DNA from: Roseofilum acuticapitatum BLCC-M154 | Lineage (GTDB): Bacteria; Cyanobacteriota; Cyanobacteriia; Cyanobacteriales; Desertifilaceae | Assembly: GCF_030068475.1 (NCBI RefSeq) | Contig: NZ_JAQOSP010000091.1 | Coordinates: 1-64,000 of the forward strand | Direction: 5' to 3' | Length of the DNA: 64,000 bases | Part shown: positions 21,591 through 58,874 of the stretch, piece after piece | Layout of the letters: every line of letters begins with the position of its first letter | Position numbering within the stretch: position 1 is the first letter of the stretch | Position numbers and translations under genes: made by a program | The notes under the pieces: generated by a model | Database searches by the model: none | Seen by the model: the letters and a program-made list of their open reading frames with translations, nothing else | Told to the model about the DNA's origin: nothing

Positions 21591-21694
21591 TTTCCCGATT
21601 CGTCTGTAGTTGTAATATACTCATCACCTGAATCTTAATTAAAGACTCCTCCCAATCAACCGTCATGAAATTTAGTCATTCTAGAGGCCCATCT

Positions 21695-23599
21695 GTGAAA
21701 CTGAATTGGTTATTTCCTAGCCTTTTAGGACTCTGGCTCTGGTCAGCCCCAGTCCAAGCAGCCAGTTTACAATATTGGCGGTTCGATGCCAGAAACAATC
21801 GTCTGGAATTCACCACCAACGGCCGAGTTCAACCCACTGCCCAACTCATTTTTAATCCCACTCGCTTAGTCATCGATTTACCCGGAACCAGTTTGGGCAA
21901 CTCCATTCGTTCCCAACTGGTCTCTACCCCAGGGATTAAACAAGTCAGAACCGGGCAATTTGAGCGCAACACCACCCGCATCGTCATTGAATTAAACTCT
22001 GGCTATACCCTCGACCCCTCTCAAGTCAGATTTATCGGCTCTTCTGCCTCCCAATGGACAGTACAACTACCTCAACCCCAACGAGAAGGCACAACCCCAA
22101 CGCGCTCCAATCCTCCGCCTACTTTAACTTCACCTCCCCCCTCTCGGCCGGTAGCTCAACAACCTACCCCCAACCGCAGCACCAGTGGAAATGAAATTGA
22201 AGGGGTTCGAGTCACGGGTGATGGCTTTTTCATTCGCACCACCAACCAGCCAGAAATTGCTAGAGTGGAGCGCTCCTCAGACCAACGTCAAATTGAAATC
22301 GATCTCAAAGGGGTAAGTATACCCAATAGCTTAAACCCCAGACGTTTAAATATTAATAGTCGGGGACTCAATCAATTTATTCTCAGTCCCTTAGAGGGGG
22401 ATGAGACCGGAACTCGTATTACCCTCAATGTCAACCCGAATAGTGCAGATTGGCAAGCTATACCTAACCGCATAGGGCTGGTTCTGATTCCCAGAGCTGG
22501 GAGTGGAACCGATGTTGCCAGTGCTAATCCTTGGCCGGCTGGTCGCGAGATTCGAGCCGCCGATCCGAATGTGCCCGATCCCACTCAACCGCCCCTGATT
22601 CAGGCGATCGAGTTGTCTGGTAATAGCACCAATTCCCAATTGGTGATTCGTGCTAGTGGCCGAGTCACTGCGGTGGGGGAATGGCCCAATCCTTCGGTCT
22701 ATACTTTAAGATTATCGCCCGCTCGCTTAGGGCAAAATCCGCCTCAGATGCCTACAGGGGGAAATAGTCCCTTTACTCGCTTTGATGTGCAGCAAGCTGA
22801 TGACCAAACGGTGGTGATTTCTATGACTCCTCGTTCTGGATTTAGCTTGGGACAGATCAATCAAGCGGGTTCCCAGGTGATTGCCCTATCTTTGGGGTCA
22901 GGTACTCCTTCCTTACCCCCTATTGCCTCGACTCCCAATCCTCCCTCAGCCAATATTCCCATTCCTGTTCCTAGACCAGCGAATCCTCTACCTCCTCAGC
23001 CGACGACTCCACCCCGTACCCAATGGCCCCTACCTACTCCAGGACGGACTCCCAATTCTCGAATTCGGGTGGTGATCGATCCGGGTCATGGGGGCCGCGA
23101 TCCCGGTGCAGTCGGCATTCGTGGACTGCGAGAAACGGATGTAGTTTTAGATATCTCTCGACAGGTGGCCGCCATTCTGCAACAAAATGGGGTGCAAGTG
23201 GTTTTAACCCGCGATCGCGAAGTAGAAATCGACCTGGCTCCTAGGGTGAATCTAGCCGAACGGGTCAACGCCAACCTCTTTGTTAGCATTCATGCCAATG
23301 CAATTAGTATGAGTCGCCCGGATGTCAATGGAGTAGAAACGTACTACTACAATAGTGGCGCTCGCCTAGCCCAAGCGATTCAAGGTTCCATCCTCCGGAG
23401 CATACCGATGACTGACCGGGGAGTAAAAAGCGCTCGCTTTTATGTTCTCCGCCGAACATCCATGCCATCGGTATTAGTGGAAACTGGATTTGTAACCGGG
23501 GCCCAGGATGCTCCGAGGTTAGCGACTCCAGCCTTTAGAAGTCAAATGGCTCAGGCGATCGCCAATGGAATTTTGCTGTATATCCGGCAAAACTACTAG
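21695..23599 (+). CDS. N-acetylmuramoyl-L-alanine amidase with AMIN domains (AmiC-type)
   Basis: A 634-residue secreted amidase that cuts the amide between muramic acid and the stem peptide. The GTG at 21695 (VKLNWLFPSLLGLWL) is chosen because its paralogue begins the same way and an AGAGG lies upstream; an ATG at 21665 is the alternative. A signal peptide is followed by AMIN regions (about 25-130 and 170-270), a third AMIN-like region (about 300-400), a Pro-rich linker and a C-terminal Amidase_3 domain (about 455-630). Zinc and catalytic residues are visible in DPGHGGRDPG, RETD, SIHANA and VETGF. Cyanobacterial AmiC proteins split septa and drill septal pores in filaments. Confidence 0.92.
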   Translation: MKLNWLFPSLLGLWLWSAPVQAASLQYWRFDARNNRLEFTTNGRVQPTAQLIFNPTRLVIDLPGTSLGNSIRSQLVSTPGIKQVRTGQFERNTTRIVIELNSGYTLDPSQVRFIGSSASQWTVQLPQPQREGTTPTRSNPPPTLTSPPPSRPVAQQPTPNRSTSGNEIEGVRVTGDGFFIRTTNQPEIARVERSSDQRQIEIDLKGVSIPNSLNPRRLNINSRGLNQFILSPLEGDETGTRITLNVNPNSADWQAIPNRIGLVLIPRAGSGTDVASANPWPAGREIRAADPNVPDPTQPPLIQAIELSGNSTNSQLVIRASGRVTAVGEWPNPSVYTLRLSPARLGQNPPQMPTGGNSPFTRFDVQQADDQTVVISMTPRSGFSLGQINQAGSQVIALSLGSGTPSLPPIASTPNPPSANIPIPVPRPANPLPPQPTTPPRTQWPLPTPGRTPNSRIRVVIDPGHGGRDPGAVGIRGLRETDVVLDISRQVAAILQQNGVQVVLTRDREVEIDLAPRVNLAERVNANLFVSIHANAISMSRPDVNGVETYYYNSGARLAQAIQGSILRSIPMTDRGVKSARFYVLRRTSMPSVLVETGFVTGAQDAPRLATPAFRSQMAQAIANGILLYIRQNY

Positions 23600-23707
23600 A
23601 GCTATGTTCGGAAAGTTTCACGCCCTCATAGCGGGTTCATTTCCCAAGCTGATGTAGTGATTGTCGGAGCAGCAAGGGCGTATCACAATCATCAGCGAGG
23701 AAACGGC

Positions 23708-25240
23708 GTGAAACTTCATTGGCTTTTACCAGGTGTTTTAGGATTATGGCTGCTCTCATCTCCCGTCTATGCAGCCAGTTTGGAAAATTGGCGCTTTGAT
23801 GCCAGAAACAATCGCTTAGAGTTGACCACCGATACCAATGTCCAACCGAGAGCGCAACTGATTTATGGGCCGACTCGTTTGGTGGTTGACTTACCCGGAA
23901 TTCAATTAGGGAGAGCATTACGGGAGCAGTTGGTCAATACGCCTGGGATTGCCCAAGTCCGCACGGGGCAGTTTAATTCTAATACTACTCGCTTAGTCGT
24001 AGAACTCAAACCCGGTTATACCATTGACCCCAATCAAGTGAAATTCCAAGGGATTTCCCCTCGTCGATGGGTGGTGCAAATTCCCAATCCTCAACGGGTG
24101 CAAACACCGGTTACCCCTCCTCCGGTTTCTACTCCTCAACCGGTTCCTTCGAGCAGCGCTTCATCTGTAGTAGAAGGGATTCGGGTTACTCGTGATGGCT
24201 TTTTTTTACGGGTGAATGGAGATAATCCAGAAGTGAAGTCTGTCAAACGCAGCTCTAATCAACAGGAAATCACGATTGATTTTGAGGGAGTTACCTTAGC
24301 GAGCGATTTACATCAAAGACCTTTACCGATTAATAGTCGAGGGGTGCGCCAAATCCAGATGAGTCAATTGGAGGATTCTATTGTAAGGGTAACTTTAGAT
24401 GTGACCCCTGCCAGTCCGGATTGGAAAGCCGTTAGCCAATCCTATGCTGTTATTCTCATGCCGGTTCCTGGTAGTAGTATTTTATCTACCCAAGAAGCGC
24501 AACAACCTTGGCCGACCAATCAGGAACTAGCATCGGCAAATTCTTCTGTAGAGCCACTACCGACCCAACCCCCTCAAGATGGAGTGGTGATTAATGTACC
24601 GCCACCGGCTAATCCTTTGCCTCCTGCTCCTCCTCGTCCCCAACCCTTGCCTCCTCCGACGACTAATCCTCGTCCGTCTACTCCGACTCCTCCTCGCAAT
24701 ACTCGCATTCGAGTAGCCATTGACCCCGGCCATGGGGGTCGTGACCCTGGAGCGGTGGGGAATGGACTACGGGAGAAGGATATTGTGATGGATATCTCGA
24801 ATCAGGTGGCGGCTATCCTAGAGCAAAATGGGGTGCAAGCGGTGCTGACTCGTCGGGATGACCGGGAAATTGATTTAGCTCCTAGGGTGGCGACGGCCGA
24901 ACGAGCGAATGCGACCCTATTTGTGAGCATTCATGCGAATGCGATTAGTATGAGCCGTCCAGAAGTGAATGGGTTGGAAACCTTTTACTATCAAACGGGT
25001 CAGGCTTTAGCTCGCGATATCCATAATAGTATTCTGCAAACTTTAAATATTCGCGATCGCGGTATTCGTCGTGCTAGATTTTATGTGCTGAGAAACACAT
25101 CTATGCCTTCTGTCTTGGTGGAAACTGGATTTATCACGGGTCGGGAAGATTCGGCTAAATTAGCGAATCCCGTTTTCCGTCGTCAGATGGCTCAAGGGAT
25201 TGCCAATGGCATTCTGCGCCATATTCAGCAAAACTATTAG
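23708..25240 (+). CDS. N-acetylmuramoyl-L-alanine amidase, second AMIN paralogue
   Basis: A 510-residue paralogue of the preceding gene. The GTG at 23708 (VKLHWLLPGVLGLWL) is preferred, with GCGAGG upstream. It carries a signal peptide, two AMIN domains (about 25-125 and 160-260), a Pro-rich linker (about 285-340) and Amidase_3 (about 345-505), with DPGHGGRDPGA, REKD, SIHANA and VETGF. It lacks the third AMIN-like region present in its neighbour, so it is about 120 residues shorter. The tandem pair recalls AmiC1/AmiC2 of Nostoc-type cyanobacteria, where they act in cell separation and cell-cell communication. The 108-bp gap between the two has no visible terminator. Confidence 0.92.
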   Translation: MKLHWLLPGVLGLWLLSSPVYAASLENWRFDARNNRLELTTDTNVQPRAQLIYGPTRLVVDLPGIQLGRALREQLVNTPGIAQVRTGQFNSNTTRLVVELKPGYTIDPNQVKFQGISPRRWVVQIPNPQRVQTPVTPPPVSTPQPVPSSSASSVVEGIRVTRDGFFLRVNGDNPEVKSVKRSSNQQEITIDFEGVTLASDLHQRPLPINSRGVRQIQMSQLEDSIVRVTLDVTPASPDWKAVSQSYAVILMPVPGSSILSTQEAQQPWPTNQELASANSSVEPLPTQPPQDGVVINVPPPANPLPPAPPRPQPLPPPTTNPRPSTPTPPRNTRIRVAIDPGHGGRDPGAVGNGLREKDIVMDISNQVAAILEQNGVQAVLTRRDDREIDLAPRVATAERANATLFVSIHANAISMSRPEVNGLETFYYQTGQALARDIHNSILQTLNIRDRGIRRARFYVLRNTSMPSVLVETGFITGREDSAKLANPVFRRQMAQGIANGILRHIQQNY

Positions 25241-28242: not shown

Positions 28243-28674
28243 ATGTCACTAAAAGTTGAACTGTTGGAACAAAGCTTTGAGAAGGTTAAGCCGGAAGCCA
28301 ATGAATTTGTAGAGAGTTTTTACGCAAATATGTTCGCGGATAACCCGGAGGCCAAACCCCTATTTGAGCATACGGATATGAAAAAACAAAAGCAAATGCT
28401 TTTGCAGTCTTTGGTGTTCACAGTAGAGAACTTGAGAAAGCCAGAAGAGTTAAGTAGTGCCCTCAAAGGACTAGGGGCACGTCATGTTAAATATGGGGCC
28501 CTTCCTGTTCATTATCCCATCGTGGGTTCTGCACTCTTAAAAACCTTTGAACAATACTTAGGAGATCAGTGGACTCCTGAAGTTAAACAAGCTTGGATTG
28601 ATGCCTATCAAGCCATTACCGAACTGATGCTCTCAGGCGCAGATTACGACAAAGCAGAAACCCAACTTTCTTAG
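28243..28674 (+). CDS. Single-domain bacterial haemoglobin
   Basis: A 143-residue globin of the flavohaemoglobin-like single-domain type, without reductase domain. The proximal haem ligand is H81 in ARHVKYG; the distal pocket has Y27 (B10) and Q49 (E7), the pair found in Vitreoscilla haemoglobin and flavohaemoglobins and associated with NO dioxygenation. HYPIVG after the proximal His is also characteristic. A strong GGAGAGG ribosome site precedes the ATG. It is the first gene of a probable operon: the multihaem cytochrome gene starts 3 nt after its stop. Two palindromes upstream may control it. A role in NO or O2 handling is inferred from the residues and the neighbours, and electrons would have to come from a separate reductase. 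Confidence 0.92.
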   Translation: MSLKVELLEQSFEKVKPEANEFVESFYANMFADNPEAKPLFEHTDMKKQKQMLLQSLVFTVENLRKPEELSSALKGLGARHVKYGALPVHYPIVGSALLKTFEQYLGDQWTPEVKQAWIDAYQAITELMLSGADYDKAETQLS

Positions 28675-28677
28675 GTC

Positions 28678-29325
28678 ATGACCAGCAATTTGCAGCGATT
28701 TCCTCTGTTGAAAAATCTTTTTCAAGTCAAGACAGCTATCATTGCAGTGGTGGTTTTGCTATTAATTTGGGGAATTGCTGCGTTTGCCTTAGATCAGCGT
28801 CAAATCTTTCTGCCAGGAGTTACATCAGACGGACATACTTTAATCGAAGCCTCCTGTAGTTCCTGTCATGATGGGTTTAAACCGGTGAGCAATGAAACCT
28901 GTACGCGCTGTCATGAAGCGGAGTTAGTGAGTGATGCTCATGGCTCAAAAAAGTTTCGCGATCCCCGTTGGGCGGAATATCTGAGTAATTTAGATGTTTT
29001 GACTTGTACAGCTTGTCATGAAGAGCATGTTCATATGTTTGGTCGCGGGGTTCACCTAAAACCGGATTTATGTATGGCTTGTCATGAAGGGGTAATTGCT
29101 GGCGATATTCCCAGTCATAAGGGGTTTGAGCCGGATGGCTGCTGGACAGCCGGATGCCATAACTATCACGATCATCGGTCAATTTCGACGGGTTTTTTAC
29201 GGGAAAATTTAAATCAGCCGATCCTATTGCCGAAGCCAGAAATGCCGAATTTAGAGGTAACCCTAACTGAAAGTAAACCTCCTAAACCCGATTTAGGTGA
29301 AGCGTTTCTGGAGGGTGAAACATGA
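28678..29325 (+). CDS. Membrane-anchored multihaem cytochrome c (five haem sites)
   Basis: A 215-residue protein with an N-terminal signal-anchor (about 18-38) and a periplasmic domain with CXXCH motifs at C60, C75, C110 and C132, plus a CX4CH motif at C155-H161 (CWTAGCH). The tail (about 175-215) is Pro-rich. The size and single anchor recall NapC/NrfH-type quinol dehydrogenase cytochromes, but the spacing differs and I cannot assign it to that family with confidence. It starts 3 nt after the globin stop and its own stop overlaps the next cytochrome start by 4 nt (ATGA), so these genes are tightly coupled. Expected role: electron transfer between the membrane and the 6-haem partner. Confidence 0.88.
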   Translation: MTSNLQRFPLLKNLFQVKTAIIAVVVLLLIWGIAAFALDQRQIFLPGVTSDGHTLIEASCSSCHDGFKPVSNETCTRCHEAELVSDAHGSKKFRDPRWAEYLSNLDVLTCTACHEEHVHMFGRGVHLKPDLCMACHEGVIAGDIPSHKGFEPDGCWTAGCHNYHDHRSISTGFLRENLNQPILLPKPEMPNLEVTLTESKPPKPDLGEAFLEGET

Positions 29326-30107
29326 GCAGAAAAGTAATCGTTTCGATTCTCTGCTTGGTGCTGATGTTCTGGAGTCATGGGGCGATCGCCTCCCCGATTT
29401 CCGCCGAGCGAGTAACAGAAATTACTCAGCAGTGGGAACAGAGTGTCCATGCTCTGGCGGATGTGAACTGTTCCACCTGTCATGAAGACTCTAAAACCAA
29501 AACCTTGGTGGTGCGTCCTAACCACGAAAGTTGCCAAAGTTGTCATCAGCAACAGGTTGATACCTTTCTACTCGGTAAACATGGGATTCGCACGGCGGAA
29601 GGACTTTCCCCTTTAACTCCTAAGATGGCACACTTACCGATGAAAGACTCGGCTTTTGATACCTCTATGGGGTGCAATACTTGCCATGATGTCCATCAAC
29701 TTGACACTTTTAAGGCTTCCGTAGATTCCTGTTTGCAATGCCATAATGATGCCCATTCTCTCAATTATTGGGATTCAAAACATGGTTCTCAGTTTGCTGC
29801 ATCCGTCAGACTGCCTCGCCCCAGTCCCGATCTGGTGACTTGTGCAACCTGCCATTTACCCCGCACAGTCAATGAGAATACCAATTCCGTGTTTGTCAAT
29901 CACAATAACACTTATAACCTGCTTCCACGCGATCGCATGGTGAAAGAGGTTTGCATGAATTGCCACGGTTTGGAATATTCCTACAACAGCATCTTTGACG
30001 ATGACTTAATTGAGGGCAACTTTCACCATCCCCCTCAGCAAGATTTAGAGACTCTGAAGTTGGTTAGAGCGCTAGAAAAACAGCGAACCGCTTCAGACTC
30101 TGAATAA
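29322..30107 (+). CDS. Secreted six-haem cytochrome c
   Basis: A 261-residue protein with a cleavable-looking signal peptide (about 4-24, ending AIAS) and six CXXCH motifs, at C50, C71, C118, C137, C174 and C211. Additional His residues (KHG at 86-88, HDVH near 122-125, WDSKHG near 150-155) could act as distal ligands. The motif pattern resembles parts of the hydroxylamine oxidoreductase and octahaem reductase superfamily, but two haems fewer are present and no catalytic Tyr/Lys motif is recognised, so electron transfer is as likely as catalysis. It is translationally coupled to the previous gene by a 4-nt overlap. Confidence 0.87.
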   Translation: MSRKVIVSILCLVLMFWSHGAIASPISAERVTEITQQWEQSVHALADVNCSTCHEDSKTKTLVVRPNHESCQSCHQQQVDTFLLGKHGIRTAEGLSPLTPKMAHLPMKDSAFDTSMGCNTCHDVHQLDTFKASVDSCLQCHNDAHSLNYWDSKHGSQFAASVRLPRPSPDLVTCATCHLPRTVNENTNSVFVNHNNTYNLLPRDRMVKEVCMNCHGLEYSYNSIFDDDLIEGNFHHPPQQDLETLKLVRALEKQRTASDSE

Positions 30108-30137
30108 CAGATCTGTTCACCTACAGGAAAACCCCTT

Positions 30138-30794
30138 ATGTCTATCCTCCGAACTTGGATACGTTCACTGAAACTGAAAACCATCAGCTTATTTGTTTTA
30201 GCCACAGCTATTTGTTTAACTGCTGTTTCTTGTGCTGGAGGAAATACCAGTAGCTCGACTCAAACCAGTGGTATCGATCCTGCTCTCGTGGTTGATTATA
30301 TCCATGCCGTCGCTGAATCCGATCGTACTGCCTATACTAAGCATGTGGTGAATCGATTGAAAACCTTAGAAGGGCAAGAAAAACCCAACGGAGTAGTCCC
30401 CGCAGAAGCAACGGAAGCTTGGCAAGATGCCAATGGTATTCCTTTACCCGCGCAAATGTTCCGTTTAGGGGCAGAACTAGCCTCTGAACAAGGTACATTC
30501 ACGTATGGTTTAATTTCACCTTGGAATATTAATGATGCACAAGCTCCTAGAGGAGAGTTTGAAGAGGTGGGGATGCAAACCGTTATTGATACGGGAGAAC
30601 CCTATAAAGATTATCGGGAAATTGCTGGTCAAGAATATTACTCGGCTATTTATCCCGATAAGGCGATCGCCGAAGCCTGTGTCACCTGTCATAATCAGCA
30701 CCCCATCCATAAAGAACGCTATCCCGATAAAATCTTTGAATTGGGAGATGTTATGGGCGGTGTTGTGATTAACTTACCCATCGAAGGAACCTAA
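30138..30794 (+). CDS. Tll0287-like (DUF3365) c-type haem lipoprotein
   Basis: A 218-residue lipoprotein: a basic N-terminus, hydrophobic core and lipobox AVSC with C32 as lipid site. A DUF3365-type domain follows with one c-haem site, C181-x2-C184-H185, in ACVTCHNQHP near the C-terminus. The founder, Tll0287 of Thermosynechococcus, has a PAS-like fold and binds one haem; its function is unresolved, with redox sensing or electron transfer proposed. It starts 30 nt after the six-haem gene and so belongs to the operon. FTYGLISPWNINDAQAPRGE is a typical family segment. A palindromic repeat at 30841 lies between it and the next gene. Confidence 0.85.
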   Translation: MSILRTWIRSLKLKTISLFVLATAICLTAVSCAGGNTSSSTQTSGIDPALVVDYIHAVAESDRTAYTKHVVNRLKTLEGQEKPNGVVPAEATEAWQDANGIPLPAQMFRLGAELASEQGTFTYGLISPWNINDAQAPRGEFEEVGMQTVIDTGEPYKDYREIAGQEYYSAIYPDKAIAEACVTCHNQHPIHKERYPDKIFELGDVMGGVVINLPIEGT

Positions 30795-30840
30795 TCAAAT
30801 CATACTCAATAGTCATTCCCAATAATAGTTAGGACATGGC

Positions 30841-30868
30841 GTAGGGGCGAACAGCCGTTCACCCCTAC
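30841..30868. repeat. GTAGGGGCGAA palindromic REP
   Basis: GTAGGGGCGAACAG and the near-complement CCGTTCACCCCTAC form a 28-bp imperfect palindrome. The same sequence recurs as a perfect palindrome inside the gene at 59015-61735 (at 60124-60153). In the operon it lies between the haem lipoprotein and the membrane cytochrome genes and could affect transcription or mRNA stability. Confidence 0.7.
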
Positions 30869-30897
30869 TTTGTAAATATACAGCGACTAGCTATACC

Positions 30898-31500
30898 ATG
30901 AAACCCAAGTTTTCCACCCTCATTATTTTAACAGTCGTTTGTGCTGTTCTACTCACCCCTTTTGTATTTAGTCCCAACTATATCCCTGTTCTACGCTTAA
31001 ATGATTTCGATCTGTATTTAACCTTTCAAAGTGAACTATATAAGCAAATCACAGGATATTTATCCCTTATTTTTGTCCTATTAGAAATGGTATTAACCAT
31101 TCGCAAACGGGGTAGAAGTTGGAAAGTAAAAGTCAAAGTCCCCGGCAGTCTTCAGCTTTGGAGAAGCTTACATATTTTTCTAGGAATCGCCCTAGTTGGC
31201 AGCACCTTTATCCATACCGTAGGTGTACGCGGTTTTAACTTTAATGCTATTTTTCTATGGGTCTTTTTCTTAGTTACCTTATCTGCATTAGTCGGTGTAG
31301 TGGCTGAAACTGGCATTTTAGAATCTTCCCAGCGCTATTTCCGATTCAGTTTATCCCCCGCTAGTGAGAATCCAGGAATTTCTAAAGGTGTTTTAATTCG
31401 TAACCTTAGAGGAATATGGCTCAATAGCCATATGATTTTAGTTAGCATGTTTTTAGTTATGCTAGTTTTCCACATTATCATTGCCTATTATTATCAATAA
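30898..31500 (+). CDS. Predicted di-haem cytochrome b-like membrane protein
   Basis: A 200-residue protein with about five hydrophobic segments (about 6-24, 52-68, 90-108, 116-137, 177-197). Two of them carry histidine pairs: H92 and H106, and H178 and H192. Each pair is separated by 14 residues, the spacing used by cytochrome b helices to hold two haems across the membrane. This is consistent with a small quinol-oxidising or -reducing cytochrome b. I do not recognise a named family. It abuts the thioredoxin gene (stop at 31500, start at 31501). With the anchored and soluble multihaem cytochromes it would complete a quinone-to-periplasm electron path. The di-haem assignment is an inference from residue spacing. 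Confidence 0.7.
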   Translation: MKPKFSTLIILTVVCAVLLTPFVFSPNYIPVLRLNDFDLYLTFQSELYKQITGYLSLIFVLLEMVLTIRKRGRSWKVKVKVPGSLQLWRSLHIFLGIALVGSTFIHTVGVRGFNFNAIFLWVFFLVTLSALVGVVAETGILESSQRYFRFSLSPASENPGISKGVLIRNLRGIWLNSHMILVSMFLVMLVFHIIIAYYYQ

Positions 31501-31965
31501 ATGCAGCTCCATAAAATCACAAAAATTAGTTTAGGATTACTCTTCATTGGCGCGATTGCCTGTTTATTTCTGTTTCCTAAATCTCCTCCCGTACTCTCCT
31601 CTAGTTTAACGGGTTTGCAGCAACTTAAAGTTAGCGTCCAAGCTGCTGTTTCCTATTCTTTGGCGATAGAAAATAGTTTGCCTACAGTCATTGAGTTTTA
31701 TGCCAATTGGTGTACTACTTGTCAATCTATGGCTCCTGCGGTTCACAAAATTGAGCAAGAGTATGATAAGCAAATTAACTGGGTTATGATTAATATCGAT
31801 AATCCAGAATACACAGATACTATTGAACAATATCAGGTGCAAGCTGTCCCCCAATTCACTTTTTTAGATGCTGAAAATGTCTGGCAGAATAACCTAATGG
31901 GCAAAATCCCTCAATCTATACTGCTTGAGCAAGTTATAGCCCTACAATCCGATCATAGGGAATAG
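31501..31965 (+). CDS. Membrane-tethered thioredoxin-like protein
   Basis: A 154-residue protein with an N-terminal anchor (about 8-26) and a thioredoxin domain (about 45-150). The active site is WCTTC with C71 and C74; the cis-proline lies in VQAVPQF. It resembles HCF164/TxlA-type thioredoxins that keep CXXCH cysteines reduced for haem attachment, which fits the surrounding c-type cytochromes and the CcsBA-type genes nearby. The ATG follows the previous stop directly with no gap. Specific orthology to HCF164 is likely but unproved. Confidence 0.85.
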   Translation: MQLHKITKISLGLLFIGAIACLFLFPKSPPVLSSSLTGLQQLKVSVQAAVSYSLAIENSLPTVIEFYANWCTTCQSMAPAVHKIEQEYDKQINWVMINIDNPEYTDTIEQYQVQAVPQFTFLDAENVWQNNLMGKIPQSILLEQVIALQSDHRE

Positions 31966-31989: not shown

Positions 31990-32916
31990 TTAATGGGGAA
32001 CATTCAATGCTCCATGATGTCTGAGCCAATCTTTTTGGGAATCGGTTAACCCTTGAGCATCAGTAAATGTTGCTCCCATCACCTGACAATTAATGAACTC
32101 AACATCTTTCCAAATTGTCCGTTCTAAATTAGCATCTTGGAAACTGGTTTCTACCAATTTTACTCCATCGAACAATGCAGATTCTAGATCTGTCGATAAA
32201 AATGAACAATATTCCAAAATACTATCCGTAAACGACGCATTAATACATTTTGCACCGACAATCTCTGTCTGTTCAAGCTGAACAGAACGAAAATCAACTT
32301 CAGATAAATTAGCAGATGCAAAATCAGAGTTTTTGACCTGGGTACTTAAAAAGATAGACCGGTGTAAATTGGCTTTTTCTAAATTTGTGTTTTCCAAAAG
32401 GCTTTGACTCAAATCTGCTTGTTCTAAAAGAGCCGATTCAAATACTGTTGAGGTCAGTTTACAATGAATTAATTGGGTATGACTGAGATTAGCTTGGCTG
32501 AAATCAGCAGAACCAAAATTTGCTTTCTGGGCTTTAATCTCCCTCATGTCTGACTTATGAAAATTAGCCTCAATAGCATTGATATAATCTAAGGTTGCAC
32601 CATAAAGTTTGGTGTAACGAGCGTCAAGAGATCGACAATTTGCACGCTCTAAACAGGCTCTATTGAGTTCGGCATGGGATAAGTTAGCACAAACTAAATT
32701 ACTTTCGGTCAAATTGGCTAACATCAAGTTGGCTTGAGAAAAATTGGTTCCTTGACAAAAGGCCCTAGATAGGTTTGCTCCTCGGAGATAGGCTTGACTA
32801 AAATCACCTTCATCAAGAATACAACCCTCTAGATTAATGCGGCTCAATTCAGCACCTACAAAAGATTCTCCTTGCTGGAGTTGGCTGACGACTTCTTCGG
32901 CTGTGAATAAACTCAT
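31990..32916 (-). CDS. Pentapeptide-repeat protein
   Basis: A 308-residue protein made almost entirely of A(D/N)LXX-type pentapeptide repeats (for example ANLSRAFCQGTNFSQANLM, ADLSQSLLENTNLEKANLH), which fold into a right-handed quadrilateral beta-helix. The last about 25 residues (FTDAQGLTDSQKDWLRHHG) form a non-repeat cap. Such proteins are common in cyanobacteria and mostly of unknown function; some mimic DNA. It lies on the minus strand between the two halves of the cytochrome region, which otherwise reads on the plus strand, so it is probably not part of that unit. Residues around 165-215 are less regular than the rest. Confidence 0.88.
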   Translation of the reverse strand: MSLFTAEEVVSQLQQGESFVGAELSRINLEGCILDEGDFSQAYLRGANLSRAFCQGTNFSQANLMLANLTESNLVCANLSHAELNRACLERANCRSLDARYTKLYGATLDYINAIEANFHKSDMREIKAQKANFGSADFSQANLSHTQLIHCKLTSTVFESALLEQADLSQSLLENTNLEKANLHRSIFLSTQVKNSDFASANLSEVDFRSVQLEQTEIVGAKCINASFTDSILEYCSFLSTDLESALFDGVKLVETSFQDANLERTIWKDVEFINCQVMGATFTDAQGLTDSQKDWLRHHGALNVPH

Positions 32917-33069
32917 AAATTAAGGGAATATGTGAAAAAACTTAAGTTCTAGCTTATCGCTTAATTGACCCTTCGCGCTACTTTTGTCATCCTGAATACA
33001 ACCCGACCTGCTCAAGGGAGTACAGTAGAGAGCAAGAAAATGATTTGATAATCTTTAAAGTATTTGACA

Positions 33070-34494
33070 ATGAATATGCCTTTGATCCGGTTCTTCGGTT
33101 CAATCCAATTTGCAGTTCCTCTTCTAGGGAGTATTGCTGCTATTTTAGTTGGAGCTACAATTTATGAAGCTCAAGTTGGCTCAAGTGTGGTGCAACATCT
33201 AATTTATAAAAGTCCTTGGTTTGGAATGTTGATGTTCTTGCTGGCGGTGAATTTATCGATTTCGGCTCTGACGCGCTATCCTTGGCGAGGCTCTCGTAAA
33301 GTGGGGTTTGCTTTAACTCATATTGGATTGGTTTTGATTATTATGGGTTCGGCGGGAGTGATTCACCTGAGCTTGGAGGGAATGTTACCGTTACGGGAAG
33401 ATGAAGTGGGTAATTATCAGATTCGCGTTGAGGGAGATTTATTGGAGGTGATGACTCCTGAAGGGGAGCGCGAACAAAGGGATATTTTTATTCGTCCGGA
33501 TGGCTCGATTTCTCCGTCTTCGGTTCTGGGAGTTTCTCTGTTAGGTTATGCGGAGAATACGGTAAAAACGGTGAGTTTTGAGGATGGGGGAAAGGTTGCG
33601 AATTTAGCTTTACGGTTGCGGTTAAGTAGCGAGCGGATGGGGCAAGATGTGGAGCAATGGTTGGCTTTTGCACCGTTATCTTATCGTAGGGTAAGTTTGG
33701 GGCCGGCTGAGTTGGGGCTGATGGTGGTGGAGAGTGAGGAGGAAGCGCAGGAGAAAATTGCAGAATTGGGAAAAGATTTAGGGAGGAATTATTTTGAGGC
33801 GATCGCCACTTCATCGGGTAAACTCTATTATGCAACTCATTCTGCTCAAGGCTTTCAATCGGGTATCCTGATGGCACATCAGCCGATTTCACTGGGTTGG
33901 GCAGACTTTGAGATGACTCTAGAAGAGCAACTTACCCATGCTCAGATTGACCGTCAAATTGTACCCGTTGGCGATCGCACGCTGCAAGGAAGTCCCGCTA
34001 TCTTGGTGGAAACCGAAACCGGGACTCAACAATGGCTTCCTTGGGGAGAACCCACCGCTATCCCTACACCGGATGGGGAAATTCTAGCCGCTTTTACCCC
34101 TAAGCTCTTTTCTCTTCCCTTTCAAATTGCCTTGCAAGACTTTATCGTAGAGCGCAACGAAGGTTCCGATAGTGTTGCCATGTGGACGAGCAAAATCCAA
34201 ATTCAAGACTATCATCAGCAGGTTAGCAGCGATCGCACCGTTTGGATGAACCACCCCACCTGGTATCAGGGATGGAAAATCGCCCAAGCCTCGTGGAATC
34301 CCGGAGATTTACGCCAATCCACCCTACAAGTGAAACGCGAACCCCTGTGGATAACCCTACTCACCTGGACAGGTTCCGCCCTTGTGGTTGTCGGCATTGG
34401 GACAATGTTCTACGGTAAAACTATTCAGAAAATACTCAGCCGTTACCCATCACCAGCCGTTAGTTTAGGAGAAAACAATTTAGTAGAAAATTAG
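33070..34494 (+). CDS. ResB/Ccs1-type cytochrome c biogenesis protein
   Basis: A 474-residue System II haem-attachment protein. The ATG at 33070 is preferred over an upstream TTG. Membrane helices lie at about 12-30, 45-62, 75-97 and 430-450, with a large periplasmic domain (about 100-425). Segments such as NLSISALTRYPWRG, FALTHIGLVLIIMGSAGVI and LEGMLPLREDEV recall the N-terminal half of fused CcsBA/NrfI proteins of epsilonproteobacteria and Bacteroidetes, not the usual Ccs1 of cyanobacteria. His in FALTHIG would be the haem ligand. It is followed after 13 nt by the CcsA gene. The distinct family suggests a second, dedicated maturation system, possibly acquired. Confidence 0.82.
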   Translation: MNMPLIRFFGSIQFAVPLLGSIAAILVGATIYEAQVGSSVVQHLIYKSPWFGMLMFLLAVNLSISALTRYPWRGSRKVGFALTHIGLVLIIMGSAGVIHLSLEGMLPLREDEVGNYQIRVEGDLLEVMTPEGEREQRDIFIRPDGSISPSSVLGVSLLGYAENTVKTVSFEDGGKVANLALRLRLSSERMGQDVEQWLAFAPLSYRRVSLGPAELGLMVVESEEEAQEKIAELGKDLGRNYFEAIATSSGKLYYATHSAQGFQSGILMAHQPISLGWADFEMTLEEQLTHAQIDRQIVPVGDRTLQGSPAILVETETGTQQWLPWGEPTAIPTPDGEILAAFTPKLFSLPFQIALQDFIVERNEGSDSVAMWTSKIQIQDYHQQVSSDRTVWMNHPTWYQGWKIAQASWNPGDLRQSTLQVKREPLWITLLTWTGSALVVVGIGTMFYGKTIQKILSRYPSPAVSLGENNLVEN

Positions 34495-34507
34495 CACATC
34501 GAAATCT

Positions 34508-36217
34508 ATGTTTTTAAATCCCTTTCCCATGAGCAATCTGATTAAATTTTTCATCGCTTTAACATTAGGGCTTCTCCTCTGCTTCTTCCCCGCAGTGCAA
34601 GGGATAATCTCTAGTCCAGACACCCATAATGATGCCCTTAAAACCCTAGCTGTACAACTTGATGGACGCAAAAAGCCCCTAGATACAGTTGCCAGAGAAA
34701 CAGTAACTCAAATCCACGGCAGTTTAGATTATCAACCCTTAACCGGAGAAAAGCTTGATTATCTCGATACCTATCTTTCCCTATTGTTCAATAACCGAGA
34801 CTGGAATGAAGAACCATTTATTCTGTTCAATTATCGTCCCTTAAAAACTGAACTAGGACTCAATCCAGAACAGAACTATTTTTCCTTTGTTGAATTGGTC
34901 TCTTCTCCGTTGGGTTCGTTTGTTTTACAAGCCCATGAAGCTCAAGCCGAAGATATGGATTTAACGCGAGATCAACGGGAAGCGCTAACCCTAGAAGACC
35001 GTTTAGCCTTAATGTTAGAGACCGTGAGTAGTACGCAGTTACCGCTTGTTCCCCATCCGAGCGATCCAAAAGGGAAATGGGTGGGAATAGTTCAGGCTTC
35101 TGAATATTATGCACCGGAACAAGTGGAGACCCTACAAGTAATCTATGGCGAAGTTAAACAAGGGGTGCAAATTGGGCTAACTTCTGATTTAAATTCTCAA
35201 GTTTTAGAACTGAAAAAACAACTGGTAGCCTTAAGTCCTGAAGTCTATCCTTCTGGAGAAAAATTAACGCGAGAAGTCCGTTTTTATGCGCTGCATTGGT
35301 TTACCCAAGCCTGGGTTTTGTATGGTTTAGGATTTCTGGTGATGTGGGTTACCCTTAGATGGGAAAAGTTACAAGCCTATTGGGTAGCATTAGGGTTATT
35401 TTGTAGTGGGTTAGCGGTGCATGGATATGGGTTTTGGGAGCGGATGCAAATTGCAGAACGCCCCCCAGTAACGAATATGTATGAGTCGGTGATTTGGGTG
35501 AGTTTGGGTATAGCGGCGATCGCCGTTACCTTTGAGTTTATGCATCGTGCGAAATATTACCTGTTAGCGGCCGCTCCCTTGTCTGTCTTGTGTTTGGTAT
35601 TAGGCGATCGCCTCCCAGCCGTCCTCGATCCCAGCATTAAACCCCTCGTCCCTGTATTGCGCGATAACTTTTGGCTCAGTGTCCATGTGCCCACCATCAC
35701 CCTCGGTTACGCCAGCTTTGCCCTCGCCTTTGGTTTCGGTCATCTGTTGTTGGGGGCTTATCTATTCAAGCCCACCAACAAAGACTTTATCAACAAACTC
35801 TCGCGCTGGAACTATTCTATCCTCCAAGTCGGCGTACTATTTTTAACAACTGGTATCATCCTCGGTGGCATTTGGGCCCACTTCTCCTGGGGACGATTTT
35901 GGGGATGGGACCCCAAAGAAACCTGGGCATTAATCGCCCTCATGTGCTACATTGTGCCCCTACATGGTCGATTAGCCGGTTGGCTCGGCAACTTTGGCAT
36001 GGCGATCGCCAGTGTCATCAGCTTTAATGCTATTCTCATGGCCTGGTATGGCGTAAACTTTGTCCTCGGAACCGGATTACACAGCTACGGCTTCAGTACC
36101 GGAGGCTCAGAGCTAATCATCGGTAGCTTAATCAGCCTAGATATGCTGTTTGTATTAGTCGTATTCCTGCGTCAACAAACCCTCAAAAACCAATCCCAAT
36201 CTCCAGCCCTATCCTAA
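34508..36217 (+). CDS. CcsA/ResC-type cytochrome c biogenesis protein with N-terminal extension
   Basis: A 569-residue protein. The C-terminal about 310 residues have eight or more membrane helices and the haem-handling WWD motif (WGRFWGWDPKETW at about 461-473), with conserved His in the flanking loops (SVHVPTI and LHSYGF). The N-terminal about 230 residues, with one anchor and then a periplasmic region, begin LAVQLDGRKKPLDTVARE; a GRxKPLDTxARE element at this point is found in fused CcsBA proteins. Typical cyanobacterial CcsA is about 340 residues without this region. With the gene at 33070 it forms a split CcsBA pair. An ATG at 34529 is an alternative start. Confidence 0.85.
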   Translation: MFLNPFPMSNLIKFFIALTLGLLLCFFPAVQGIISSPDTHNDALKTLAVQLDGRKKPLDTVARETVTQIHGSLDYQPLTGEKLDYLDTYLSLLFNNRDWNEEPFILFNYRPLKTELGLNPEQNYFSFVELVSSPLGSFVLQAHEAQAEDMDLTRDQREALTLEDRLALMLETVSSTQLPLVPHPSDPKGKWVGIVQASEYYAPEQVETLQVIYGEVKQGVQIGLTSDLNSQVLELKKQLVALSPEVYPSGEKLTREVRFYALHWFTQAWVLYGLGFLVMWVTLRWEKLQAYWVALGLFCSGLAVHGYGFWERMQIAERPPVTNMYESVIWVSLGIAAIAVTFEFMHRAKYYLLAAAPLSVLCLVLGDRLPAVLDPSIKPLVPVLRDNFWLSVHVPTITLGYASFALAFGFGHLLLGAYLFKPTNKDFINKLSRWNYSILQVGVLFLTTGIILGGIWAHFSWGRFWGWDPKETWALIALMCYIVPLHGRLAGWLGNFGMAIASVISFNAILMAWYGVNFVLGTGLHSYGFSTGGSELIIGSLISLDMLFVLVVFLRQQTLKNQSQSPALS

Positions 36218-36231
36218 AACCCCCACCTACT

Positions 36232-36690
36232 ATGGAACGTCGTTACTTTATCAGTTGGATGACCCTTGGCGCACTCGTGAGCGTCCTTCCTCCCACCCTC
36301 TCCGGTTGTGAGTCTGGGGACACCCCCCCAACTCCCCCTAGCGACGAGACCCCCCAAATAGATACCTCCATGCGCGAAGACGGGTTTCAAGCCCTCGGTA
36401 CAATTCCTCAACTCCAAGCCGAAGGAACCATTGTAGACCGACGCAATGCCCCCAAACCCGTCCTCATCTTCCGTCATCCCGAAACCCAAGCCATAGTCGC
36501 CCTCAATCCCATGTGTACCCATCAAGGTTGCACCGTCGAACTGTCTGCCGATGAAAATTTATTTGACTGTCCTTGTCACGGTTCCCAATTTGGTTTAGAT
36601 GGTGCAGTTTTATCCCCTCCTGCGGAAAAACCCTTACCCCTCTTTGAAGTCAAAGAGGAAGGAGACCTCATTTTAGTCAAAACTCAGTAG
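36232..36690 (+). CDS. Rieske [2Fe-2S] lipoprotein
   Basis: A 152-residue Rieske protein with MERRYFISWM at its N-terminus, a twin-arginine-like start, and a lipobox with C26 (LSGC). Cluster ligands are C95-H97 in CTHQGC and C113-H116 in CPCHGS, with C100 and C115 as the expected disulfide. A Pro-rich linker (about 27-45) separates the anchor from the domain. It is not the cytochrome b6f PetC, which is longer, has an N-terminal helix and is normally next to petA. It starts 15 nt after the CcsA gene, so it is likely part of the same transcript and may be a redox partner of the multihaem module. Confidence 0.88.
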   Translation: MERRYFISWMTLGALVSVLPPTLSGCESGDTPPTPPSDETPQIDTSMREDGFQALGTIPQLQAEGTIVDRRNAPKPVLIFRHPETQAIVALNPMCTHQGCTVELSADENLFDCPCHGSQFGLDGAVLSPPAEKPLPLFEVKEEGDLILVKTQ

Positions 36691-38608: not shown

Positions 38609-41600
38609 ATGTCAAATTACTCAATCAATGCTACTGACATAAGTGAATATGTTCGATATCAATCCTGCGATCGCCGGTTTAAGTTAAAGTTTGATAACTA
38701 TAAACTTGCAAAAGAGATTCCTTTTAACCAATTGATTTTTGCGACTTCTTTAGATCCTGTGCTAGAAGCAGAAGGTAAAAACAGAGAGAATGACTGGGAA
38801 TCTTCACTTAAGCAACAAGGATTGGTAAATTTAATTGACACCACTCATCAATCAGAGTTAGATCAATCAAGAACATGGAGTGATTTTGTTGAATCTTTAA
38901 ATACTTTGTCAGTCAATCAAAATGCTTACGGACGAGAAATTTCTATCAAGGGAACACTAGGAGATTTTTATATTAGTTGTAAAATTGATTTTGTCCTTGT
39001 TTTATGGGAAAACAATTGCCCTAAAATTAGGTTAGTTGAATGTAAAGCATCTCGAAAAGATAGAACTTATCATCACATACAAGTGGCTTTGTATCGAATG
39101 ATGATCTGTAAATCAATCAAAAATTACCCCATTGTTATTAATGGCATAGAGCTTAAAGATGAAAATATTGAATGTGTGGTTGTTCGCATCGATGAAAATA
39201 CCAACAAAAATCAAGATATTATTCAAGCCAATTGTATAAATTTAGATACGATTGAAGCTGACATTAATCGTCTGGTTTCCTCAGATGGTATACTCAAATA
39301 CATTATTGAAACTAATTTAAGTAATTTAGACTATCAATTAGATGAAAAGTGTAGTGATTGTACATTGAGTGTCCATTGTTTATCGGAGAGTGCAAGGCAA
39401 CGACGTTTAGAATTACTGGGGATAGATGCATCAACAGTAAAGTCATTAAATCAAGTAGGGATTAACAATATTGATGATTTAGCTGAAATGGATTTACAAG
39501 GAAATCAAGCTAGACAACTCCAGCAAGATATCAGCTTTACAGAAAGTTTAGATCTGCTTCAAGTAAAAGCGAGAACTCGTAGACGGACTCTTCCTGATGG
39601 AGATTTAGATCCGGATGATTATCAAGTAGAGCAACTCAATTATTCAGGTAAAAGTCAACTTCCAGAATATATAATTGATGGAGAACGTTTAATTCGTGTC
39701 TATCTTTCTGTTGAATATGATTACGTTGAAAATAGAATAGGTGCATTAGCTGCTCATGTCACTAAAAGTGAAGGTAAGTTAGATCCCAAGTTTAAGCAAG
39801 ATGAATTTGGTAAATGGAAGCCCGATCCTAACATTAAAGAATATATTGACTCAGGACAGGATCAAAAGAATAAGCCTCTTTACCAAGAAAAAGAACTTGA
39901 AGGAGAGGATTTAATTAAATTTAAGACATCCCCATGGTCGGGAGATTACAAAGAAGATAATGGTTCTGAAAAAGAACTGATTCAAGGATTTTTATTAGAA
40001 TTAGTAGATGCGATTTCCTCTGTTGCTGAAACAGAACAAGCTCCCATTCATTTTTATGTTTGGTCACGTCAAGAAATGACCCAATTAGTTGAAGGTTGTT
40101 CTCGCGTTAGTTCGCAACTCCTCAGTCATTTACGAGAGTTATTGGGATGTCGAGAAAGTTTAGATCAACTGATTTACTCGTGTCTATCTGATGAAGTTGA
40201 TCGACGTTATGCTCTTGGATGGACAGGGCGAGATTTAGCTGTTGTTAGTTCTCTTAAGTGGTTTGGAAGACGTTATCATTGGCACCGGAAGATAGCAGGA
40301 AAAATTGTAATTTTAGATCGGGTCTTTTCTCAAGATGTATTTGACTTTAAAACGAATTTAAAAATAGATGGTAATCATCAATGGGCCACATCACAAACTT
40401 CCAATCCTCGTAAGCATCAGTTTGAAGTTAGACTCAGATACTTTAATTCTCTGAGTGCAGCGTATTGGCGAGCGTATTGGCGACAACTTCCCGATCCCAA
40501 TGAACTCAAACATAAAGCAAAATTAAAAAAATCTATTGAGCGTTATAATCAAGCACAACTGCCTAATTATTTAAGAGAGTATTTTCGCGCTCGTACTCAT
40601 GCTATTAGATGGGTTGAAGAGGGGATTCGCTTTAAGAATCGAGAAATCACCAAAGAACCTTTAATTATTGCAAACTTACCAGATTTTAATTTAGGTGTAG
40701 ACAATGCAGCCCAAGCAGGAATTGATTTTTTACGTTTAGATCAGCATGTTAAAGTGACAGATTGGATTGCCAAACATTTGATCCCACCCATCTATCGTAT
40801 TTCTTCGGGCCGAACAATACCTATTGCAAATGTTAGATCAACTCAAAGTAATCAGCTAACAGCAGAAATTAATCTTGATAGATACAATATCACCCCTGAA
40901 GTGTTACAAGCTAACTGTACCATTGATGTAGGTTCTTTTATTAGAGTTACTCCTGCTTCTGATAATCCACATCAAGGTCAAACCCTCAATCAGCTTTTTG
41001 CGGGTGGAAGTACATGCGTTGTAGAAGATATAAATTGGAATAATGGACGTATTGTATTGGCTATTAGACAAAAAAGAGGTGGAGATCGCTACCAAATTCG
41101 TGGTCGTTTTTATGACCGAGAAGAAGATGTGTATACTTTTGCCACTATTGATGAAAGTCCCTCAGATTTTGTTGCTGGAAAAGTCGATCAAAAATTACAA
41201 AACAGCCGAGGAAATCATGTTTGTCAATGGTTAGCCCCGCAAAAACCTCAAATTCCTGCACAAACTCCTGTTTCAGAGAGTAATTTAAAACTATATCGAA
41301 ATCTACTTGAGACGTTACCCTTAGCCAATAGCAAAAAACTAGACCAGAAACAAATTGAAGCAGCTCTTAACGGACTCAATAGTAGAATTCAACTTTTGCA
41401 AGGGCCACCAGGAACTGGGAAAACAGAAACTACTGCGATTGCCACTTTTCTAAGAATCTTAGCACGTTGTCATCCGGGCGATATTGTTCTTATTGCCGGT
41501 CATACGCATACATCTGTAGATAATTTACTCTTACGCTTAGAGAACCTTTTACCAATTTTGCAAAAACATGCTACTGATTTGAGCTTAAATGTGCCATCAA

Positions 41601-58236: not shown

Positions 58237-58249
58237 TAGACTGTAGATC

Positions 58250-58283
58250 GTAGGGTGTGTTAGCGACAGCGTAACGCACCCTA
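58250..58283. repeat. TAGGGTG/CACCCTA palindromic repeat
   Basis: TAGGGTGTGTTA at 58251 and TAACGCACCCTA at 58272 are inverted arms around a short GCGACAGCG centre. It follows the MoxR stop by 14 bp and could act as a terminator, though no T-run follows. It is the first of a series of different palindromic repeats up to 58961. Confidence 0.7.
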
Positions 58284-58314
58284 ATGGCTGATTATTTTCT
58301 TTATTTTAAGCTTT

Positions 58315-58369
58315 GTAGGGTGGGCAATGCCCACCATAAAATATACTAGGTGGGCAATGCCCACCCTAC
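58315..58369. repeat. 55-bp composite palindrome, copy 1
   Basis: Two GTGGGCAATGCCCACC palindromes flank an A/T centre, bounded by GTAGGG and CCCTAC. A nearly identical element lies at 58799-58853 in inverse orientation (its centre is the reverse complement of this one). The pair brackets the DUF433 gene region. Confidence 0.8.
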
Positions 58370-58391
58370 TCCTAATTATGAGGTAAAGAGT

Positions 58392-58625: not shown

Positions 58626-58657
58626 AAATATTGTTTGATCAATTTTTTTTATCTTAA
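58622..58657 (+). pseudogene. Truncated DUF5615 toxin remnant
   Basis: The reading frame beginning at 58622, coupled to the DUF433 stop, gives MKILFDQFFLS and then TAA. MKILFDQ is the usual start of DUF5615 PIN-like toxins. The remaining about 100 codons are absent and repeats follow, so the toxin has been deleted and the antitoxin has been left alone. Confidence 0.65.
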
Positions 58658-58675
58658 ATCAATCCTAACGCTGTT

Positions 58676-58708: not shown

Positions 58709-58798
58709 AGACCCTGGGCGAGTATAAGCGAGGATTGGGGATTTTGGAAGGAATCTCGGCTTGCATCTGATGATTTTCTTTATGTTCAACCTAGCTTT

Positions 58799-58853: not shown

Positions 58854-58874
58854 TCAACTATAAAAAAAAGACTT

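Follow-up and report, generated by a model that had tools for sequence, protein, structure and literature searches.

Gene content and order of the operon

We describe a conserved cyanobacterial operon for a globin, multihaem c-type cytochromes, and a putative cytochrome b. With about an even chance of being right, we propose that it encodes a self-maturing transmembrane conduit, or outlet, in which electrons would pass from haem b to haem c, with a cytoplasmic O2- or NO-binding globin alongside. Its parts are recognisable; for the system as a whole, no description was found in the open-access literature, which agrees with a sequence-only reading of the same DNA that knew of no named cyanobacterial system of such form.

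The operon lies in a 64,000-nucleotide stretch of Roseofilum acuticapitatum BLCC-M154 (assembly GCF_030068475.1, contig NZ_JAQOSP010000091.1, positions 1 to 64,000; here, the window). Six co-directional open reading frames (ORFs) at 28243 to 31965 of the plus strand, all present as the sequence-only reading had listed them, encode a single-domain globin of 143 aa (28243..28674; PF00042, 67.7 bits), a membrane-anchored pentahaem cytochrome c (C5; 28678..29325), a secreted hexahaem cytochrome c (C6; 29322..30107), a Tll0287-like (sCache_heme) lipoprotein (30138..30794), a helical membrane protein that is likely a di-haem cytochrome b (CytB; 30898..31500), and a membrane-tethered thioredoxin with a WCTTC motif (Trx; 31501..31965; PF00085). 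From globin to Trx, they are separated by a gap of 3 bases, an overlap of 4 bases, and gaps of 30, 103, and 0 bases. The extent of the unit had been underestimated, since it runs on from 31990 to 36690 with a convergent pentapeptide-repeat gene on the minus strand (31990..32916; 308 aa; PF00805, 143.9 bits) and, on the plus strand, a second, divergent pair of cytochrome c synthase genes, Ccs1/ResB-like (33064..34494) and a long CcsA-like gene (34508..36217; 569 aa), and a Rieske 2Fe-2S protein gene (36232..36690; PF00355, 48.4 bits), the product of which has a twin-Arg-like start and a lipobox-like LSGC, as read by eye. Two inverted repeats with 8-base arms and spacers of 5 and 6 bases lie 5' of the globin gene in the window; inspection of 22 upstream regions by eye revealed no inverted repeat common to different genera.

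Distribution and decay

A lack of co-conservation, one of the two outcomes that the sequence-only reading had named as refuting its proposal, is not what we found: gene order is conserved, and the block was recovered from 20 units of cyanobacteria (counted by species or strain, with all Roseofilum as one), including four of Moorena, three of Symploca, and three of Acaryochloris. Two duplicate loci are excluded from this number, as are 13 non-cyanobacterial loci among the 33 that the C6 bait retrieved. In the neighbouring DNA examined, C6 (by construction, as the bait) and the Tll0287-like gene are present in all 20 units, C5 in 19, and the globin and CytB genes in 18 each, the missing copies all falling at contig ends. 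Of the six block genes, Trx is missing most often (present in 13/20). Linkage to the block was seen for Ccs1 in 12 units, for CcsA in 10, and for Rieske in 8, and not in the neighbouring DNA of the remaining 8, 10, and 12, respectively. The hosts make up a limited set of cyanobacteria, among which are several apparent mat-formers of marine habitats and members of coral black band disease consortia.

Among 291 sampled genomes of the phylum, a number too small to test for habitat, the CytB profile matches only four, and these are the same four that have a long CcsA scoring above 600 bits. Two of them carry the operon and are strongly matched by C5 and C6. The other two carry decayed blocks without the globin, C5, C6, and Tll0287-like genes; an in-frame stop interrupts the long CcsA of one (G054), and in the other (G211) the CcsA frame is unbroken (570 aa) and CytB is fragmentary. 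Neither those four genes nor Ccs1 was found within 19.9 kb around the G211 block. The intact long CcsA there indicates that the association between the Ccs set and the operon cytochromes is not a strict one. Weak matches, namely, one to C6 (E value of 6.9e-4, 29%), five to C5 (20 to 23 bits), and three to long CcsA (147 to 190 bits), were left uncounted; in two of the genomes with these distant CcsAs, no CXXCH-containing ORF was found among the neighbours. These searches scored the best first-pass candidates, so that faint relatives may be missed.

Multihaem cytochromes and the Tll0287-like lipoprotein

C5 has four CXXCH motifs and one CX4CH motif (CWTAGCH in the window) in 21/21 sequences, and C6 has six CXXCH and no CXXCK in 21/21, partial copies from two loci and duplicates being left out of these counts. 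Together with the single CXXCH (CVTCH) of the Tll0287-like protein, the covalent haem motifs total 12, as had been estimated. Both cytochromes match Cytochrom_c3_2 and are related to each other (hhalign probability of 97); the N-terminal hydrophobic anchor of C5 and the signal peptide of C6 were read by eye.

The suggestion that a hydroxylamine oxidoreductase (HAO)-like pattern points to hydroxylamine or NO chemistry is not supported. C6 (261 aa) resembles an HAO-like structure over residues 39 to 164 only (E value of 3e-7), and its five invariant and one nearly invariant His residues outside the haem motifs are enough for bis-His ligation of all haems. Hydroxylamine oxidoreductase has eight haems, one of them a P460 haem crosslinked to Tyr, compared with six motifs in C6, which does not qualify as a member on this count. 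NrfA and octahaem nitrite reductases carry CXXCK at the catalytic haem; the lack of this motif and the sub-cut-off profile scores of C6 (PRK11125, 15.2 versus 595 bits; PF02335, 14.9 versus 24.1 bits) do not place it in that group. C6 is not a decahaem MtrA/DmsE cytochrome either, having six haems rather than ten and scoring 40.9 bits with TIGR03508 (cut-off of 192.2), and no MtrCAB-type outer-membrane porin partner was noticed among gene families common to at least three units. For C5, a NapC/NrfH quinol dehydrogenase identity was rejected because Cytochrom_NNT (which we take to be PF03264) is not among its matches at an E value of 0.1; at the same threshold, the C5 alignment matched no solved structure. 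The AlphaFold2 model of C6 has a mean pLDDT of 47 and was excluded from the fold search.

The Tll0287-like protein belongs to sCache_heme (PF11845, 57.8 bits; cut-off of 24.1), its CXXCH being invariant in 19 sequences. C32, C181, C184, and H185 are invariant in this alignment; C32 is likely the lipobox Cys, judging from the sequence, and no further Cys is invariant, so the Cys axial ligand of Tll0287 is probably absent here. The alignment matched no solved structure at an E value of 0.01.

CytB

No Pfam model scores over its cut-off with CytB. In an alignment of 17 sequences, H92/H106 and H178/H192 (two H-X13-H pairs) are invariant, and in the AlphaFold2 model (pLDDT of 76.6) each pair lies within one helix (85 to 109 and 163 to 198). 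CytB is thus likely a di-haem cytochrome b, as previously suggested, and the idea of a b-type to c-type redox chain gains support, haem b binding being predicted from sequence and model. Structural comparisons decide nothing: the alignment gave one chance-like match to solved structures (E value of 0.008), Foldseek gave none for the model at an E value of ≤0.001, and in the VIA comparison cytochromes b (E. coli hydrogenase-1 cytochrome b, 6g94_A, first, Z of 8.0, rmsd of 4.7, 131 aligned; cytochrome b6, 2e74_A, fifth, Z of 7.5; formate dehydrogenase-N cytochrome b, 1kqf_C, 38th, Z of 6.5) are interleaved with unrelated helical bundles. A ferric reductase/NADPH oxidase identity (PF01794) was rejected, as no Ferric_reduct, FAD, or NAD match appeared at an E value of 0.1; homology with NOX was dropped at an hhalign probability of 0.5 against three NOX proteins.

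A second cytochrome c synthase set

Both System II domains of the operon score over their cut-offs (ResB, PF05140, 46.4 versus 24.6 bits; Cytochrom_C_asm, PF01578, 108.8 versus 29.9 bits). With the equivalog TIGR03144, the operon CcsA reaches 149.4 bits (cut-off of 187.6) and is thus a divergent member. Elsewhere, the window's genome has a stronger ResB match (224 bits) and a short CcsA-like ORF, each on another contig, as well as another tethered thioredoxin; the operon copies therefore represent a second set. The sequence-only reading rightly recognised the operon Trx as tethered and missed its likeness (34% identity) to this other thioredoxin, which we take to be of the housekeeping TxlA/HCF164 type. 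The operon Trx is likely an apocytochrome thiol reductase. A long CcsA is present in all 23 operon-bearing genomes searched, including one in which it lies on another contig, and a separate short CcsA is present in 19 of them; because it was not found in the other four, the second set is demonstrated for 19. Presumably, the second CcsA serves the operon cytochromes.

The globin and its pentapeptide-repeat partner

Y27, Q49, and H81, presumably Tyr B10, Gln E7, and His F8, are retained in 35/35 aligned globin domains, in line with the pattern first noted for the window. With a Globin domain, this Tyr/Gln/His pattern, and no reductase domain, the protein is a single-domain flavohaemoglobin-like globin; it scores 83.2 bits with NF009805, under the cut-off of 432. 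The closest solved structures are 3s1i/3ubc ("Hemoglobin-like flavoprotein") and 3wfw. No signal peptide was seen in the Roseofilum globin, which is probably cytoplasmic. The description as single-domain is correct for the window and had overlooked the relatives, which have one to five tandem domains and, in 15/23 cases, a hydrophobic C-terminal tail that the Roseofilum globin lacks. The globin gene heads the block in all 18 units in which that part of the contig could be read.

A pentapeptide ORF is close to the operon in 18/20 units. The operon-type globin subfamily is also found without the operon cytochromes in other cyanobacteria: in 9 of 12 selected non-operon loci, globins of this subfamily are fused to pentapeptide repeats, and three of these nine loci also encode an NADPH oxidase of the EF-hand type, which is a b-haem enzyme that spans the membrane.

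Proposed function and alternatives

In the conduit that we propose, CytB, with its four invariant His residues and two putative haems b, would be reduced by the quinol pool or on its cytoplasmic side and would send the electrons across the membrane to the anchored C5 and on to the secreted C6. The Tll0287-like protein and the Rieske lipoprotein would then relay them to an acceptor in the periplasm (or lumen); stand-alone Tll0287 domains have been regarded as redox related (PMC12889525). Covalent haem attachment would fall to a System II of the operon's own, made up of the second Ccs1/CcsA pair and, where present, the tethered thioredoxin, and the unusual CX4CH site in C5 is perhaps the reason for it. 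On the cytoplasmic face, the globin, membrane-tied in many relatives, may bind O2 or NO beside the chain. The chain would probably act as an additional electron sink where O2 alternates between surplus and depletion, as it does in mats. Against this reading, no substrate-binding or catalytic subunit was recognised in the operon.

The globin may instead store or deliver O2 for respiration and merely share an operon with an independent cytochrome chain. Tandem amplification up to five domains and the cytochrome-free occurrences of the subfamily fit this idea, but we consider it unlikely given the constant first position of the globin gene and its loss from both decayed blocks. Slightly less probable is a nitrogen-oxide system, in which the periplasmic haems would reduce nitrite, hydroxylamine, or NO, the Tll0287-like protein would bind NO, and the globin would turn leaking NO into nitrate with CytB electrons. 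The flavohaemoglobin-like globin and the short stretches that C6 has in common with HAO-like, NrfA, and eight-haem nitrite reductase structures speak for it, as does the NO binding described for Tll0287-family members (PMC12889525); against it stand the absence of CXXCK from C6, matches to solved structures that span part of the protein only, and its capacity for bis-His haems. Moreover, the single stand-alone Tll0287-type protein described as tested released NO quickly and was considered to be of a redox kind (PMC12889525).

Electrons could also flow the other way, with sulfide, Fe(II), or some other donor in the periplasm reducing the c-haems and CytB delivering the electrons to the quinone pool. 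Haem b/c conduits can operate in either direction, and two hosts, Roseofilum and the record named Geitlerinema sp. BBD 1991-9, are linked by name to sulfidic black band mats. Yet no donor-binding subunit was seen, and Geitlerinema sp. BBD 1991 is reported to be unable to photosynthesise with sulfide and to have an SQR gene (PMC4918915); we regard this direction as quite improbable. Lowest in our estimation is a role in iron gain, as a ferric reductase or haem relay. It draws on ChaN-type haem-binding lipoprotein genes that adjoin the block in three units and two decayed loci (PF04187 was run on one decayed-locus copy, the others being assigned by likeness), but three of 20 units are few, and CytB has neither a Ferric_reduct match nor profile likeness to NOX proteins. 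As for dark sulfur respiration, the literature consulted held nothing that links it to the operon genes.

A bolder version of the conduit is possible but doubtful: a previously undescribed respiratory complex in cyanobacteria that form mats, with a four-His cytochrome b and eleven or twelve c-haems, that would be a dark or low-O2 outlet with its own CX4CH-handling synthase and with membrane-tied globin arrays as a cytoplasmic-face partner (O2/NO trap or electron acceptor). If this is true, the operon would represent one variant of a broader globin-membrane redox module that has no name as yet, given that the globin-pentapeptide pairing recurs in other cyanobacteria, sometimes with a b-haem oxidase nearby.

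The usual scheme of electron transport in cyanobacteria shows c-type cytochromes with one haem each, a single machinery for haem attachment, and oxidases that act as sinks. To this, a conserved chain of 12 haems that brings its own maturation genes would add an outlet. Its hosts include marine mat-formers and members of coral black band disease, the mats of which are described as anoxic at night (PMC4918915). The extra CcsA and the CX4CH cytochrome together offer a direct test of why several cytochrome c synthases are kept, and the one- to five-domain globins form a natural series for the question of why globins are membrane-tied.

Comparison with known systems

C6 has stretches around some haem sites in common with NrfA, eight-haem nitrite reductase, and HAO-like enzymes and differs from them in the lack of CXXCK, in having six haems, and in its length (261 aa, compared with 439 to 525 aa for the matched chains). 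Likeness to MtrA/DmsE is found among six distant proteobacterial relatives of C6 (23 to 27% identity), which are single ORFs with 10 CXXCH motifs. The operon Tll0287-like protein shares PF11845 and CXXCH with the Tll0287/sCache_heme family but probably not the Cys axial ligand reported for Tll0287 (PMC12889525).

An extra CcsA-type synthase accompanying particular multihaem cytochromes has a precedent in Wolinella NrfI and CcsA1, which are dedicated to unusual haem sites (PMC6976685). The operon differs in having Ccs1 and CcsA, often with a thioredoxin, in its CX4CH site, and in a substrate pairing that is putative. According to the title of Kern et al. 2010, as cited in PMC6976685, NrfI and CcsA1 need more than an unconventional motif to attach haem, which leaves the link to a CX4CH-dedicated synthase weak.

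The best structure matches of the operon globin, which we take to be single-domain globins of the Vitreoscilla and Hell's Gate types, have the Tyr/Gln/His pattern in common with it, whereas the operon relatives add tandem domains, hydrophobic tails, and a pentapeptide-repeat partner. The globin-pentapeptide fusions of other cyanobacteria resemble the operon in globin subfamily and repeats; their loci contain no match to the operon cytochromes, and their EF-hand NADPH oxidase is unrelated to CytB by profile.

Gene content and conservation of the operon

All six open reading frames (ORFs) that a sequence-only reading had assigned to a globin-multihaem cytochrome redox operon are present in the ORF calls of the window, at the positions claimed. 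Family searches identified a globin (Glb, 28243-28674), two multihaem cytochromes c (pentahaem C5, 28678-29325, and hexahaem C6, 29322-30107), a Tll0287-like protein (Tll, 30138-30794), and a tethered thioredoxin (Trx, 31501-31965), and assigned no family to the remaining ORF, a membrane protein (CytB, 30898-31500). Past the range of that reading lie a pentapeptide-repeat gene on the opposite strand (31990-32916) and, on the operon strand, genes encoding Ccs1/ResB (33064-34494), a long CcsA (34508-36217), and a Rieske protein (36232-36690).

Using C6 as bait in GTDB species genomes, we found 33 loci, which comprise 20 cyanobacterial loci (L004-L023) and 13 distant multihaem proteins. The comparison set, with Roseofilum collapsed to one unit and genome G170 added, has 20 units, which are not independent because they include four Moorena, three Symploca, and three Acaryochloris. 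Within the DNA examined around the loci, Tll is present in all 20 units (as is C6, by construction), C5 in 19, globin and CytB in 18 each, Trx in 13, Ccs1 in 12, CcsA in 10, and Rieske in 8. The missing C5, globin, CytB, and pentapeptide genes all fall at contig ends or on short contigs (L006, L015, L022, and L023); Trx is truly lacking beside CytB in some units (e.g., L042 and L044). Wherever it is readable, the order Glb-C5-C6-Tll-CytB is unchanged in other cyanobacteria, in agreement with the proposed operon. When C5, C6, and Tll sequences are concatenated for a tree, the loci cluster by genus, with weak deep nodes.

The block is sparsely distributed. In a phylum sample of 291 genomes, including that of the window, C6 matches occur in 3 genomes (one weak), C5 matches in 7 (five weak), and CytB matches in 4; the same four genomes (G000, G054, G170, and G211) are marked by CytB and by a long CcsA scoring above 600 bits. 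Six of 10 genomes in the family sample have C6, all from a single genus. We read the G054 and G211 loci as blocks in decay. The CytB and pentapeptide genes of G054 are each interrupted by a stretch with ORFs that resemble transposases by eye, and an in-frame stop lies within its long CcsA; the 19.5 kb examined includes ORFs for Ccs1, Trx, and Rieske but yielded no Glb, C5, C6, or Tll. In G211, what remains is a fragment of CytB together with Trx, a pentapeptide ORF, and a long CcsA whose frame is intact. Among the named hosts are Moorena bouillonii PNG, Lyngbya confervoides BDU141951, Coleofasciculus sp. LEGE 07092, a Geitlerinema sp. BBD record, and Roseofilum halophilum; the organism names suggest a link to marine and mat habitats. 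ChaN-type haem-binding lipoprotein genes adjoin intact or decayed blocks in L021, L023, L047, L087, and L088 (family tested for the L087 copy).

Elsewhere in the window are an OrfB/IS605 TnpB-like protein (484-1695, minus strand; a similar-looking ORF also adjoins the second tethered thioredoxin in L092), two adjacent similar ORFs resembling N-acetylmuramoyl-L-alanine amidases by eye (21665-25240), a 1376-amino-acid protein that matches a PD-(D/E)XK nuclease and has AAA domains of the helicase type (38609-42739), and an AAA ATPase gene followed by one for a large protein that combines an FGE-sulfatase domain with weak similarity to VWA_CoxE (57322-61735).

A second cytochrome c maturation set

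The co-occurrence of the operon with long CcsA is our strongest result. Long CcsA is present in all 23 operon-bearing genomes searched (the genome of L008 left out), the lowest score being 389 bits, for a match that covers part of the protein in G306. In G295, long CcsA and the operon lie on different contigs, so the tie holds by genome, beyond linkage. The window's genome also has a short CcsA-like ORF (335 amino acids, contig C139), a ResB match stronger than the operon's (224 bits, contig C35), and a further tethered thioredoxin (194 amino acids, 34% identity to Trx, contig C116); thus, the operon copies form an additional set. Of the 23 operon-bearing genomes, 19 also gave a match to a separate short CcsA; G303, G305, G309, and G315 gave no such match.

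Every C5 sequence (21/21) has one CX4CH motif. In Wolinella, distinct synthases serve CXXCK and CX15CH sites (PMC6976685). By this parallel, a private synthase set for the unusual C5 haem site would be an attractive explanation, although the C5 motif differs from both Wolinella sites. Such motifs are reportedly not sufficient, to judge from the title of a 2010 study by Kern et al., which cautions against the parallel.

Globins and pentapeptide-repeat proteins

Y27, Q49, and H81 are conserved in all 35 globin domains. Of 23 globin ORFs, 16 are single-domain, among them the L013 ORF, which is truncated at the edge of its contig; 4 carry two domains, 2 carry three, and 1 carries five. In the last, from L014, 94 to 98% identity among domains 2 to 5 suggests recent amplification. 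Fifteen of the 23 have a hydrophobic C-terminal stretch (mean hydropathy above 2.2 over 19 residues), which is absent from the six Roseofilum ORFs, L007, and L011. Second globin genes, 47 to 49% identical to the window's, lie downstream of CytB at L007:7066-7605 and L047:7334-7861, and the first 48 residues of a Rieske ORF (L015:2985-3560) resemble a globin start, perhaps a remnant or a fusion.

A pentapeptide ORF lies near the operon in 18 of 20 units within the DNA examined, a count that may include paralogues because such proteins are common. As a rough control, for which the cut-off differed, 12 other cyanobacterial loci of 12 to 19 kb were compared; an independent pentapeptide ORF occurs at 1 of them and a Ccs1 or CcsA match at none. 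Beyond the operon, the globin subfamily has matches in 31 of 291 genomes (E value of 1e-3, weak ones counted). At 9 of 12 non-operon globin loci, sampled from stronger matches and partly picked for long frames, one or two globin domains are fused to pentapeptide repeats (L119-L125, L129, and L130; 468 to 672 amino acids), which supports a functional link between the operon globin and the separate pentapeptide gene. Three of these nine loci also have an EF-hand NADPH oxidase gene.

Proposed electron transfer and function

CytB conserves H92/H106 and H178/H192, the partners being 14 residues apart and each pair inside one predicted helix, a spacing that we take to be that expected for two stacked haems b, as in bc- and b6f-type cytochromes. 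Profile comparison relates C5 to C6 (probability 97). Beyond the haem motifs of C6, five His are invariant and a sixth is nearly so; bis-His ligation is thus possible for all six haems, an arrangement that would fit electron transfer better than catalysis.

With about even confidence, we propose that the operon encodes a transmembrane electron outlet that matures its own cytochromes, together with a globin in the cytoplasm that binds O2 or NO. Nitrogen-oxide chemistry remains a rival; the earlier pointer to it is based on partial matches common to several multihaem families. Inward electron flow and iron handling also remain rivals to an electron outlet, as does a globin role unrelated to the cytochrome chain.

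Full-text searches of one open-access library listed no paper on such an operon, as judged by title and abstract (subscription papers were mostly outside this scope). The parts are of known kinds; what appears to be undescribed is their combination, along with the private maturation set and the arrays of globin domains.
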